A stretch of 64,000 nucleotides of DNA from Pseudomonadota bacterium (GTDB lineage: Bacteria; Pseudomonadota; Gammaproteobacteria; Steroidobacterales; JBCBZW01): contig JBCBZW010000001.1 of the NCBI GenBank assembly GCA_039815145.1, forward strand, positions 124,001 to 188,000. Direction: 5' to 3'. The notes beneath the pieces were generated by a model. The model was not told the origin of the DNA. It did not search any database and saw only the letters and a list, made by a program, of their open reading frames with translations. Each line of letters begins with the position of its first letter. The stretch's first letter is position 1. This document shows, piece by piece, positions 55,237 through 60,107 of this stretch. Made by a program: the position numbers and the translations under genes.

Positions 55237-56289
55237 ATGGCTAAACTCACGTCAACGGCCCCTTTGCCCCTCTCGCCGGCAGCGGCCGCTCCCGCAGACC
55301 GTTCGGCCGCCACCGACACCTTCCGCTGGCACGACGCGCGCGCCCACCAACAGGCCGACTGGCATTGTTTTGATGCACCGCTGCAAAACGATGGCTATCG
55401 CTGGTGGTATGTGGACGCGCTCAGCGAGGACGGGCGCTCGGGGCTAACGTTGATCGCAATGCTCGGCAGCGTGTTCTCCCCCTACTACGCTGGCGCGCGA
55501 CGCCGCGGACCCACCGATCCGCTCAACCACACGGCGCTCAACGTAGCCCTCTACGGCCCGCCGGCGCCCCGCTGGGCGCTTACCGAACGCGGCCGAGAGG
55601 CCGTCGAGCGCACACCCTCGCGCCTCGCCTTCGCCAACAGCGGCCTCGAGTGGGACGGTGACTGCCTGCGCGTGCGTATCGACGAACGCACGGCGCCCCT
55701 CGGCCGTCGGGTACGCGGTGAGGTCCGCATCACGCCGCGCGTGATCACGGACACGCTGATTGAACTCAGCCCGGCCGGGAACCACTGCTGGTGGCCCATC
55801 GCGCCCTATTGCGATGTCGAGCTACGCATCGACGAGCCGCAGGTGCGTTGGACCGGCACCGGATACCTCGATTCGAATTTTGGCGACGCGCCGCTGGAGC
55901 AGCACTTTCGGCGCTGGGATTGGTGCCGCGCCGCGACCGGCGTCGACGAGGCGTGCGTGCAGTACAACGTGGAACGTCGCGACGGCAGCCGCCCGGTGCT
56001 CGCCGCTCAGGTGCGAGCGGATGGCGACGTCCGCCCTCTCCCCGTGCTACCCACCGCCGAGGCCAGACGCGGCATCTGGGGCGTCCAGCGCAGCACGCGC
56101 GCGGACGCGGGCACGCGCCCGCTAGTGCGCGACGTTCTCGAGGACACCCCCTTCTACACCCGTTCGGTGCTCGATACGCACCTCTACGGGCAACGGCTCG
56201 AGGCAGTTCACGAGAGTCTCGACCTGGATCGGTTCAGCGCGCGCTGGGTGCAGACGCTGATTCCCTTCCGCAATCCTCGACGCGCCTGA
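55237..56289 (+). CDS. crtC: Carotenoid 1,2-hydratase CrtC
   Basis: CrtC adds water to the end double bond of neurosporene or lycopene. The 350-residue protein has SVFSPYYAGARRRGPTDPLNH, WALTERGREAVER, HCWWPIAPYCDVEL and GYLDSNFGDAPLEQHF blocks typical of the family. It stands alone on the plus strand, divergent from crtE, which differs from clusters where crtC sits with crtD or crtI. Confidence 0.94.
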   Translation: MAKLTSTAPLPLSPAAAAPADRSAATDTFRWHDARAHQQADWHCFDAPLQNDGYRWWYVDALSEDGRSGLTLIAMLGSVFSPYYAGARRRGPTDPLNHTALNVALYGPPAPRWALTERGREAVERTPSRLAFANSGLEWDGDCLRVRIDERTAPLGRRVRGEVRITPRVITDTLIELSPAGNHCWWPIAPYCDVELRIDEPQVRWTGTGYLDSNFGDAPLEQHFRRWDWCRAATGVDEACVQYNVERRDGSRPVLAAQVRADGDVRPLPVLPTAEARRGIWGVQRSTRADAGTRPLVRDVLEDTPFYTRSVLDTHLYGQRLEAVHESLDLDRFSARWVQTLIPFRNPRRA

Positions 56290-56294
56290 CGGCC

Positions 56295-56447
56295 TCAGTT
56301 CCCCTCGCGTTCTCGCTCCCTGCGCCTGCGCTCGGCGAGTGTGCGGCGATCGCGCTCGAGCGATCGCAGGTCCCAGAGAATGAAGCCGATCACGAACCCA
56401 CCCACCATCAGGAGTTCGATCAGGATGATGGGAACGTTGTTATCGAT
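56295..56447 (-). CDS. Probable small membrane protein after crtB, unusual start
   Basis: Directly after and in frame with the crtB stop there is an open frame. From an ATC at 56447 it would give 50 residues: one membrane helix (VPIILIELLMVGGFVIGFILW) then a strongly charged tail rich in R and E. The only ATG, at 56408, would cut the helix in half (37 residues). No ATG or GTG precedes the helix, so the start may be ATC or CTG, or it is read through from crtB. It ends 5 bases from crtC. Presence as a real gene is uncertain. Confidence 0.4.
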   Translation of the reverse strand: MDNNVPIILIELLMVGGFVIGFILWDLRSLERDRRTLAERRRREREREGN

Positions 56448-56468
56448 GGGCGCGACCTGGCTTAGGGG

Positions 56469-57611
56469 TCAGGTAGGCGGCTGCGGCTGCGCCGAGAACC
56501 CCGGTTCGCTCGCGGCTGGCGCTGGCCCCAGGCCACGCTCTCGCCGCTCCAGGCGCGAGAATAGATCGATCATCCAGGCGAAGCCCCGCGTGTCGGCGTC
56601 GATATCCGCCAGGAGCTGACCGTAGGTCGTGCGCGCCGCCACCTCGGGCTGACTCGGATGCACGGCGGCCACGAGGAAGTGGGTCTCGTTCAAGGCGGGC
56701 GCATTGAGACGGGTCGGTGCAGGGTGAACGGTCGCCGCCATCGCTCGCTCCACGAGGGCCAGCTTGCGGCGCCAGGAGACCACCGCCCGATGCCCCACCG
56801 AGTCCAGCCCGTCGCGCTCGAGTTGACGACCGATCTCGGCGTAGATCAACCGCGCCGCGTGAATGCCCGGACGACACAGTAGCGGCAATTTGCCGATCCC
56901 CGTACTCGCCCGTCGGTAGAGGCGCTCCGCCGCCCTGAGCAGGCGTGTCACGACTTCGCCCAGGGCGGGCGTGTATACCGGGTCCTTAAGAAACTCCTCG
57001 GGATCGATACCGGCCTCGACCATCCAGGTGCGAGGTAGGTAGAGACGGCCGTTGCGCGCATCCTCTCCGACGTCACGGCAGATGTTCGTGAGTTGCATCG
57101 CCGCCCCCAGATCACAGGCGCGCGCTAGTACGGCCGCTTCGCGTCGGCCCATGACGAGCGTCATCATCGCGCCCACGGCACCGGCCACGCGGGCGGCGTA
57201 GCCCATCAGATCCGACAGATCGTCGTACTCACGACCTTCCACGTCCCAGGCGAAGCCCTCGAGCAACGCCTCGGGCAGCGCCATCGGAATCTGCCTCGTG
57301 CGCGCGACATCCGTGAACGCACGGTCCGCCGGGTGGTCCGCGGGGTCGCCTGCATAGATGCGCTGCAGGCGATCGGTAATCTCTGCCAAACCTGCCGCAG
57401 AATCGCCGATGTCCACGGCGTCATCGGCGACGCGGCAGAACGCGTAGAGGGAGCAGGCAGGTTGGGCTATCGAAGACGGTAGGAGGAAGCTTGCGGCGTA
57501 GAAGGATCGCGATCCGCCACGCAACAGCTCGCGGCATGCGCGCAGATCGTCCGCGCTCGCATTGGCGACATCCGAGGCTGGCGGCAACGTCACAAGGTCG
57601 GACACGGTCAC
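56469..57611 (-). CDS. crtB: Phytoene synthase CrtB
   Basis: CrtB condenses two GGPP molecules to phytoene. The 380-residue protein has the first aspartate motif DDAVD (63-67) and the second NICRDVGEDARNGRLYLP (D180/D184). The start is a GTG overlapping the puhE stop as GTGA, so crtB is coupled to the puh operon rather than placed beside crtI as in many clusters. Confidence 0.95.
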   Translation of the reverse strand: MTVSDLVTLPPASDVANASADDLRACRELLRGGSRSFYAASFLLPSSIAQPACSLYAFCRVADDAVDIGDSAAGLAEITDRLQRIYAGDPADHPADRAFTDVARTRQIPMALPEALLEGFAWDVEGREYDDLSDLMGYAARVAGAVGAMMTLVMGRREAAVLARACDLGAAMQLTNICRDVGEDARNGRLYLPRTWMVEAGIDPEEFLKDPVYTPALGEVVTRLLRAAERLYRRASTGIGKLPLLCRPGIHAARLIYAEIGRQLERDGLDSVGHRAVVSWRRKLALVERAMAATVHPAPTRLNAPALNETHFLVAAVHPSQPEVAARTTYGQLLADIDADTRGFAWMIDLFSRLERRERGLGPAPAASEPGFSAQPQPPT

Positions 57612-58438
57612 GGCTTACTCCCACTACTGATCACTAGCGGCGCCCCGGCAGCGAGACGTGCGCGACGCTCTGCCTCGGTCTCGGTGAACCACTTCCAAAG
57701 CACAGCGCTGCGCAGGGGCAGCATGAGCATCCAGTGCTCGACGATGGCCAGCAGCAGCATGGCGAACACCAAGGCCGAGGCGCTGCGAACGAACACGTCA
57801 TCCGCGCCGATCGCGCGGACCAGAATCACCCCGGCCACCACCGACGAGACGGTCACAGACCAAGGGAACAGCCAGTTGAAACGCCGCCGGTTGAGGTAGC
57901 TGACCAGGAACTGGAGGTGTTCTGGAAACCAGTCTTCGTTGAAGTTGCGCACGCCCAGGAACATGTTCAGTTTTGCGCTCCAACGCATCGCCCACAGCAC
58001 CAGGTACACCCAGAGCGCCACGCGATTGGGCTGGCCCCAGGTCAGCAACACCAAGGTCAGCCCGCAGGCGATCACCGCCAACTCGTGGTAGAGGCTCGTG
58101 CCTATCGCCAATCGGAACCGCTTCAGCGGTGCCGCGCCCAATGGGCACGCTCTCTTCTGGGGGCCGGTGAGGAATCCGGTCAGGTAGCTCAACTCATGCC
58201 AAGCCCAGACCGCCACTCCGAAGACGAAGGACAGGTAGGCATCGCCAGGACTGCGTGCGTAGGGGCTGATCCACTGTGCCCCGTAGAGCGCGGCTACCAG
58301 CAGCACGCCCATCGCCCCCATGCTCCAGACGTAGGTGCGCTGTGGCGATCGCACGAGCACCAGCAGCACACCGGTGCTCGTCCACCAGAGCATCAAGGCG
58401 AAGAGCGGCGGCAGCAGAACCTCAGCCATCCCGGGCAC
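57608..58438 (-). CDS. puhE: Photosynthetic complex assembly protein PuhE
   Basis: PuhE (orf292 type) is a polytopic membrane protein of 276 residues with about seven hydrophobic segments. It has HELSYLTGFLTGPQK and LNMFLGVRNFNEDWFPEHL typical of the family. Mutants elsewhere have altered assembly of the photosystem. It lies 12 bases after acsF and is coupled to crtB. Confidence 0.93.
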   Translation of the reverse strand: MPGMAEVLLPPLFALMLWWTSTGVLLVLVRSPQRTYVWSMGAMGVLLVAALYGAQWISPYARSPGDAYLSFVFGVAVWAWHELSYLTGFLTGPQKRACPLGAAPLKRFRLAIGTSLYHELAVIACGLTLVLLTWGQPNRVALWVYLVLWAMRWSAKLNMFLGVRNFNEDWFPEHLQFLVSYLNRRRFNWLFPWSVTVSSVVAGVILVRAIGADDVFVRSASALVFAMLLLAIVEHWMLMLPLRSAVLWKWFTETEAERRARLAAGAPLVISSGSKP

Positions 58439-58450
58439 CCGAGTCGATCG

Positions 58451-59515
58451 CTACCAGCTCGGCGCCATGCGCACGTTCTCAGGCAATTCGTTGCTCTGGG
58501 GCGGCAGCAGATAGAGGCTCAGGAACTGACGACCGATGGCGAGATTCACGCTGAGGCGCTGGAAGGCGACACCGATGCCCTTCTTGCCCGCCAAGGCTTC
58601 GCGCTTGCGCGAGAGATTGCAGAGACGATCGAGGCCGGGGTAGAACTTCGGATGCTCCAGATCGAGGGTAATCGGGAACACCTGCTTGGAGATCTCGGTG
58701 GTGATGTGCAGGACCTGCTTATCGTAGTCCGTCACATCGAAGCCCATCGCCTGGTGCAACACCGGACGCGCGTGGTCGCGCACGTACATGGTGGCGAACA
58801 CGGCCAGGAGGAAGAAGCGAATCCAGAGCTTGTTGCCGCCCTCCATGAGCTTGGGCTCGTTGCGCATCAACAGCGCGAAGGCCTCGCCATGGCGGAACTC
58901 GTCATTACACCACCGCTGAAACCAGCGGAAGATCGGGTGGAAGCGCAACTCAGGATGGCGCTCGAACTGGCGGTAGATACTGATGTAGCGCGCGTAGCCG
59001 ATCTTCTCCGAGAGATAAGTGGCGTAGTAGATAAACTTCGGCCGGAAGAAGGTGTACTTCTTCTCGCGGCGCAAGAACCCGAGGTCCACGGCGATGCCGA
59101 AGTCCTTTAAGGACTGGTTGATGAAGCCTGCGTGGCGCGATTCATCGCGCGCCATGTAGCCCATCAGCTTCTGGATGTCCTCGTTCTTCACCGCTTTCTT
59201 GATGTCGGAGTACAACACGCACCCCGAGAACTCGGAGGTAACCGAGCTGATCAGGAAATCCACAAACTCCTTGCGCAGGTCTTCGGGCAGTTCCTGGATC
59301 TCGCTGGCGAACTGCTCATCGCGCTGGAAGTGATCCTTGTTGTTGTCCGACTCGAACTCGGCCATCAGCCGATCCCACTCCGCGCGCACGCCGCTCACAT
59401 CGATCTTGTCCATGGCGTCGAAGTCGGTGGTGTAGAACCTCGGCGATAGCAAGGTCTCTTCGTGCGCTCGCTGGGTAGATTCATTCGGCTGACGGGCAGC
59501 CATCGTGCTAGCCAT
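58451..59515 (-). CDS. acsF: Mg-protoporphyrin IX monomethyl ester oxidative cyclase
   Basis: AcsF is the oxygen-dependent di-iron cyclase that forms ring E. The 354-residue protein has two iron motifs, DESRH (124-128) and DEFRH (205-209). No anaerobic bchE is in view, which fits aerobic pigment synthesis. It lies between puhC and puhE in the puh operon. Confidence 0.97.
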
Positions 59516-59567
59516 GAGGATTCTCCTGAGGTCTCATGTCGTATGCCGTCATCGCCTGCGCCATGCG

Positions 59568-60107
59568 CTAGTGCGAATCGGCGATAGTTACCGCGTAAGG
59601 GGTGTCGGAATCAGTCACTCCGCCAGCGCCTGGTCCGTTGGACGCAAGCAAGCTGGCGAAAGCTTCGAGATTGGTTTGGCCGAAGGCGCGCAGGTCGTAG
59701 TCCACGCCGCTCGCCGTGTCGCGAAGCACGACGGCGCCATCCTCCCGCGCCTGCAGCAGCACGGGGGCATCGCCGTCCACGCCGCGCACCTGACGTTCGC
59801 GTGTGATCACCCGCAGCGTGCCGCGGATGAACGAGGCCTTACCCGGCGCGGCGCGGCGCAGCAGTTCATCGCTGCTGGCGTCGTAGATGAGCAGGGTGTC
59901 GTCTAAGGTGCGCTCGAAACGCAACGCTCGCGACTCGGTGACCACCAGGTTGGGGTCGAGCACAGCGGGTTGCCCGGAGCGGGTGCTCCAGCTGACGGCG
60001 AACACGAGCGCGCCCATGCCCAGCAAGAGGGTCATTAGCACGGCGCGCGCGCGCTTAGCTCGACGGCGATAGTCGGGTGAGGTGCGATCCATGGACTCGT
60101 CGTTCAT
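59568..60107 (-). CDS. puhC: Photosynthetic complex assembly protein PuhC
   Basis: A 179-residue PuhC protein with one N-terminal membrane helix (about residues 20-42) and a periplasmic domain. It has the family pattern SRALRFERTLDDTLLIYDA. It starts 5 bases after the puhB stop and aids LH1/reaction-centre assembly. The frame is open further upstream but overlaps puhB. Confidence 0.92.
   Translation of the reverse strand: MNDESMDRTSPDYRRRAKRARAVLMTLLLGMGALVFAVSWSTRSGQPAVLDPNLVVTESRALRFERTLDDTLLIYDASSDELLRRAAPGKASFIRGTLRVITRERQVRGVDGDAPVLLQAREDGAVVLRDTASGVDYDLRAFGQTNLEAFASLLASNGPGAGGVTDSDTPYAVTIADSH

Follow-up and report, generated by a model that had tools for sequence, protein, structure and literature searches.

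A small gene encoding a one-helix membrane protein was found directly behind crtB in the window, a 64,000-nt stretch (positions 124,001 to 188,000 of contig JBCBZW010000001.1) from a Pseudomonadota bacterium. The gene is real, conserved and unnamed; its start is anomalous in this one genome, and its function is putative. Few bacterial gene sets have been studied as thoroughly as photosynthesis gene clusters (PGCs). Even so, this conserved gene, carried by about half of the sampled phototrophs of the Pseudomonadota, seems to lack a name, a family model and a tested function; its length is below what routine annotation picks up. The window copy may in addition be a rare natural case of an ATC start.

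The frame and its product were located as follows:
56298–56468, minus strand: entire open frame behind the crtB stop, in frame with crtB and 57 codons long (translation)
56295–56447, minus strand: one-helix protein, most likely coding sequence, 50 aa if the putative ATC start at 56447–56445 is used; aligned from its first residue with the starts of relatives
56373–56435, minus strand: membrane helix VPIILIELLMVGGFVIGFILW, in which Glu, Gly, Phe and Trp positions are conserved (hydropathy, column conservation and AlphaFold2 helix)

As read from the sequence, crtB ran on the minus strand from 57611 to 56469 and ended with a TGA at 56471–56469. The frame behind it (56468–56298, translated as PLSQVAPIDNNVPIILIELLMVGGFVIGFILWDLRSLERDRRTLAERRRREREREGN) comprised 57 sense codons and a TGA stop at 56297–56295, leaving 5 nt before the convergent crtC, whose stop ended at 56289. 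It contained a single hydrophobic segment (best 19-residue hydropathy 2.53), and AlphaFold2, with an alignment of 14 members, predicted one continuous helix over residues 5–49, with a mean pLDDT of 89, for the 50-residue form that starts at the ATC. G+C at third codon positions was 0.81, similar to that of crtB (0.78). An earlier note on this DNA, which named no strand, had described an in-frame open run past the crtB TGA with one membrane helix and a charged tail, ending 5 bases from crtC. Translation, hydropathy, AlphaFold2 and the coordinates bore all of this out; its figure of 58 codons holds if the stop is counted.

The neighbouring genes were identified by profile searches:
56469–57611, minus strand: crtB, phytoene synthase, upstream neighbour (SQS_PSY, E = 8.6e-72; NF045921, E = 1.9e-118, short of its curated cut-off)
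55237–56289, plus strand: crtC, carotenoid 1,2-hydratase, convergent with the small gene (NF045922, E = 4.1e-78, short of its curated cut-off)
57608–58438, minus strand: puhE, putative photosynthetic complex assembly protein, upstream and overlapping crtB (TIGR03055, above cut-off)
58451–59515, minus strand: acsF, oxidative cyclase, farther upstream (TIGR02029, E = 7.6e-150)

Together with a crtE-like gene, bchC and bchX, these neighbours (crtB, puhE, acsF and crtC) indicated that the site was a PGC. No sigma-70-type promoter was found within 55900–59600.

Homologues were sought behind crtB of other phototrophs. When the DNA behind crtB was translated in 15 phototrophs of the order, 8 had an equivalent one-helix frame directly behind crtB, and in each the helix was preceded by an ATG, GTG or TTG start; the earlier note had suggested gammaproteobacterial phototrophs as the place to seek a conserved helix with an ATG. 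A family of crtB-slot one-helix proteins was then defined in this analysis by a profile (alignment A3). The window copy, situated in a PGC behind crtB and facing crtC, matched this profile with E = 4e-16 when its own genome was searched, although the profile includes it as a row; the relatives were also matched independently by single-sequence search. With 80 further loci picked from genome_contigs by CrtB alone, independently of the small gene, the gene was detected by the family profile in 43 of 96 crtB loci, behind crtB or crtB-tspO, in every case on the same strand as crtB and usually facing crtC. Where crtC was convergent, its distance from crtB had a median of 160 nt with the gene (24 loci) versus 13 nt without it (15 loci). 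The 43 carriers spanned Alpha-, Beta- and Gammaproteobacteria, a far wider range than the gammaproteobacterial phototrophs named in the earlier note; cultured strains that carry the gene include Rhodoblastus acidophilus DSM 137 (L100) and Bradyrhizobium sp. STM 3809 (L134). A scan of viral_contigs with CrtB found no relative. In a sister species of the same genus (G001; CrtB 89% identical) the gene was absent and the crtB-crtC gap was 43 nt, indicating that the gene is dispensable in the genus.

The place of the gene was not fixed. In sphingomonad-type clusters it followed bchO, and crtB was not matched anywhere within 1.5 kb; in four such loci (L172, L179, L181 and L182) it lay between bchO and a convergent crtC, and a crtB match was absent from the whole 3.1-kb locus. 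The gene that we take to be bchO in these loci was identified from its sequence and then served as a search query. The family is thus not tied to crtB alone. In three loci (L063, L079 and L088) the one-helix gene came after crtB and then tspO, and in L180 it came after tspO. TspO (CrtK) is likewise a membrane protein and fills the same slot behind crtB in Rhodobacteraceae plasmid clusters, where crtB-tspO was seen with no one-helix gene annotated. However, it is larger, has several helices and belongs to a named family, and in L063, L079 and L088 it co-occurred with the one-helix gene.

Other contents of this slot were recorded. An unnamed protein of about 110–180 aa with about three helices lay behind crtB in 12 other loci (L056, L058, L060, L062, L066, L069, L073, L074, L075, L086, L102 and L105); two examples tested gave no accepted Pfam match. 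It never co-occurred with the one-helix gene (p = 5e-4, uncorrected for shared ancestry), and the two may be alternative solutions to one need, or the exclusivity may merely follow lineage. In ten loci of betaproteobacterial type (L077, L083, L091, L116, L120, L122, L126, L127, L133 and L135) a DUF2269 membrane protein was encoded directly behind the one-helix gene. One of them, L120, is titled Singulisphaera (a planctomycete), but its crtB and neighbours were very like Limnohabitans loci, and it is probably a mis-binned contig.

The family is under purifying selection among the relatives. The dN/dS values were 0.09–0.34 in 11 of the 12 relative pairs with finite estimates and 0.86 in the remaining one, with dS near saturation in some pairs; all were drawn from relatives, the sole close relative of the window copy (G001) being without the gene. 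Third codon positions dominated the changes in nearly all relative pairs. Across 28 members the first half of the helix held a charged or polar residue (E in 21, D in 3, K in 3 and Q in 1), followed by small residues, F, W (22/28), Q/E/D, L, S/D, L/V, R (23/28) and a variable charged tail. The family signature was Glu/Asp in the first helix half and Gly, with W-[Q/E/D]-L-x-[S/D]-L-R-R closing the helix ahead of a charged tail. The form used for assigning members (Glu/Asp/Lys in the helix and W-[QED]-L-x-[SD]-L-R) was found in the window copy, which retained E11, G17, G21, F22, W25, L27, S29, L30 and R32, with D replacing Q/E after W. By the positive-inside rule, the N-terminus would be periplasmic and the basic tail cytoplasmic.

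Distribution of the family was compared with that of puhE. Among 296 genomes of the order (39 puhE+ and 257 puhE−), a family match at E ≤ 1e-3 was obtained in 17 genomes, all of them puhE+. Two of these matches (in G083, L151, and in G286, L152) were false: one overlapped crtB, and one was a different membrane protein without PGC neighbours. After their removal, matches stood at 15/39 puhE+ versus 0/257 puhE− genomes (Fisher p = 4e-15). In a phylum sample of 398 genomes they were found in 16/31 puhE+ versus 3/367 puhE− genomes (Fisher p = 2e-17), these matches not being individually corrected; both p values were computed without correction for shared ancestry. Eleven puhE+ genomes without a match belonged to one family (f71). 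Presence of crtC could not discriminate, since 67 of 69 puhE+ genomes carried it. In two puhE+ genomes the family match (L177 in G644, L183 in G314) had no crtB, crtC, bchO or tspO adjoining. The gene is thus a PGC gene with a preferred but unfixed place. About half of the sampled phototrophs carry it; as about half are without it, it is not a core part of the photosystem. Its role is very probably specific to phototrophy.

The window gene is alone in the family in lacking an ordinary start codon. Every relative examined started at ATG, GTG or TTG, in most cases 8 residues ahead of the acidic residue. The GTG of L044 overlapped the crtB stop as GTGA and the TTG of L046, L049, L050 and L053 as TTGA, while the remaining relatives of the order started at ATG or GTG within about 24 nt of the crtB stop. 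Near the equivalent place in the window only an ATC was present, with no ATG, GTG or TTG upstream of the helix; the sole ATG of the frame splits the helix, as had been stated earlier. The relevant positions were:
56445–56447, minus strand: ATC, candidate non-canonical start, 10 residues before the conserved Glu (mostly 8 in the start table of relatives)
56455–56458, minus strand: AGGT, Shine-Dalgarno-like, 7 nt upstream of the ATC (direct reading of the sequence)
56406–56408, minus strand: sole ATG of the frame, mid-helix, implausible as a start (sequence and starts of relatives)

The earlier note had offered ATC or CTG as the start. The ATC appears to be the best local candidate, having the AGGT stretch ahead of it and aligning with the starts of relatives; the CTG at 56423–56421 would come second, being without a Shine-Dalgarno-like site of the AGGT type. 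Streptomyces infC is a documented case of an ATC start, and such starts are kept low by IF3 (PMC5472188). The rare starts of infC (ATT; ATC in Streptomyces) and Streptomyces sigR (GTC) provide precedent for ATC/GTC initiation (PMC5472188), but those were experimentally shown and are conserved, whereas the ATC in the window is a candidate in a single genome. Judged from these sequence features, there is an even chance that the ATC start is active in this organism.

A quite plausible alternative, though we put it below even odds, is that the start was recently lost in the window genome, either by a true change of the ATG-to-ATC type, leaving a fresh relic, or by a base error in the assembly of an ordinary ATG gene. 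Both forms agree with the canonical start in every relative, and an ATG, one base from ATC, would give MDNN..., resembling the MD starts of several relatives. A true loss would be tolerated, judging by the absence of the dispensable gene from G001, and a base error would be compatible with the genome being a 295-contig draft. On the other hand, the frame was uninterrupted and the signature residues intact, so that any loss must be recent, and the AGGT stretch was still properly spaced ahead of the ATC.

The best reading of the context is that the one-helix protein would be an uncharacterised accessory membrane protein of the carotenoid branch or photosystem of purple bacteria. Its translation would proceed by termination-reinitiation from the upstream crtB message (elsewhere tspO or bchO); in the window genome, initiation would occur at the ATC behind a weak AGGT site. 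The protein might then be a small accessory subunit working at the place in the membrane where carotenoid synthesis is completed and the products are loaded into reaction-centre and antenna complexes. This explanation as a whole, a genuine PGC family gene with coupled translation and an accessory subunit as product, is on balance probable. Taken by itself, an accessory part in finishing carotenoids or assembling the photosystem is proposed tentatively, with a chance just under even. It is doubtful that the fullest version holds, in which a widespread unnamed subunit or assembly factor of the carotenoid/photosystem branch is throttled here by an IF3-sensitive ATC coupled to crtB translation. 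Small helical proteins of phototrophs have repeatedly turned out to be structural or assembly parts. The suggestion of an unrecognised photosystem factor, made earlier, was a fair one, since a conserved PGC helix gene with an ordinary start in relatives matched no known factor; the role itself is deduced from context.

Comparison with known families pointed to no named relative. Profile searches for the family in Pfam, NCBIfam and PDB yielded no match that could be accepted. Like the family, CcmD and LapA-type one-helix proteins carry a basic tail behind a membrane helix. However, the window protein was unmatched by CcmD (PF04995), which reached a best E of 0.014 in 2 of 28 members, far below the cut-off, and it scored 12.7 bits with the LapA domain (PF06305, LapA_dom; E = 0.12) against a cut-off of 28. 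Another likeness was THSYN_RS34580 (WP_157818073.1) on plasmid pTs485 of Candidatus Thiodictyon syntrophicum, a small gene that comes immediately after crtI-crtB within a photosynthesis region and whose helix LIELLFVVGLLFWFW has the conserved Glu, like the family. It differs in having a canonical ATG and no adjoining convergent crtC, and it is annotated merely as a ‘hypothetical protein’. No description or test of the gene was found in the text of open-access papers; papers on cluster structure depict unnamed ‘hypothetical’ or ‘uncharacterized’ genes in their figures, so the gene may have been noticed before.

The protein could instead be a dedicated membrane anchor or activator of the phytoene synthase CrtB, which we consider unlikely. 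Its gene stood directly behind crtB in most loci, and the frequent overlap of start and stop implied co-translation. However, about half of the crtB loci were without the gene, and in the sphingomonad-type clusters it followed bchO away from any crtB match. Its position beside crtC in these clusters favours a role in the carotenoid branch or photosystem assembly over that of a partner of CrtB only.

Still less likely is a structural subunit of the RC-LH1 core. PufX, protein-W, protein-Y and the gamma subunit are tiny membrane proteins limited to some purple bacteria, and the patchy distribution of the one-helix gene resembles theirs (PMC10214105). The single helix and the co-occurrence with puhE would also suit such a subunit, like PufX, protein-W or the gamma subunit. 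Against it, no solved chain fitted the family profile: the best (E = 0.065) was a regulatory peptide, and no PufX, W, Y or gamma chain appeared up to E = 10. The one-helix gene did not adjoin puf genes in the loci read. Protein-Y has two helices. The genes for PufX, protein-W, protein-Y and the gamma subunit sit in other neighbourhoods.

The other option raised in the earlier note, that the TGA is read through and the helix forms a C-terminal extension on CrtB, is very improbable. The window frame is continuous with crtB, the stop context is TGA C, and leakiness of UGA depends on context. However, the frame relation to crtB varied among relatives: most, including the closest, carried the gene in a different frame with its own start atop the crtB stop, so a fusion is not conserved, and the family also occurred without crtB. 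An apparent crtB fusion in L111 proved to be a separate ATG-started frame, and no fused gene was found among the loci examined.

Open stretches of 57 codons are common at the local composition (32% of simulated sequences), but a chance run in G+C-rich DNA has practically no probability left, being contradicted by homology, selection and the association with phototrophy. None of 20000 simulated sequences was both open and endowed with a 19-residue stretch of hydropathy ≥2.2. Conservation, far stronger evidence than these simulations, makes it virtually certain that the frame behind crtB is a real conserved gene.

The window genome also encoded two weaker one-helix relatives with a W-D-[IM]-x-x-L tail (L002:1435–1614 on G000:C85 and L003:1465–1629 on G000:C28). 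Both lay outside the photosynthesis cluster, and one of them adjoined a formate dehydrogenase-like operon.
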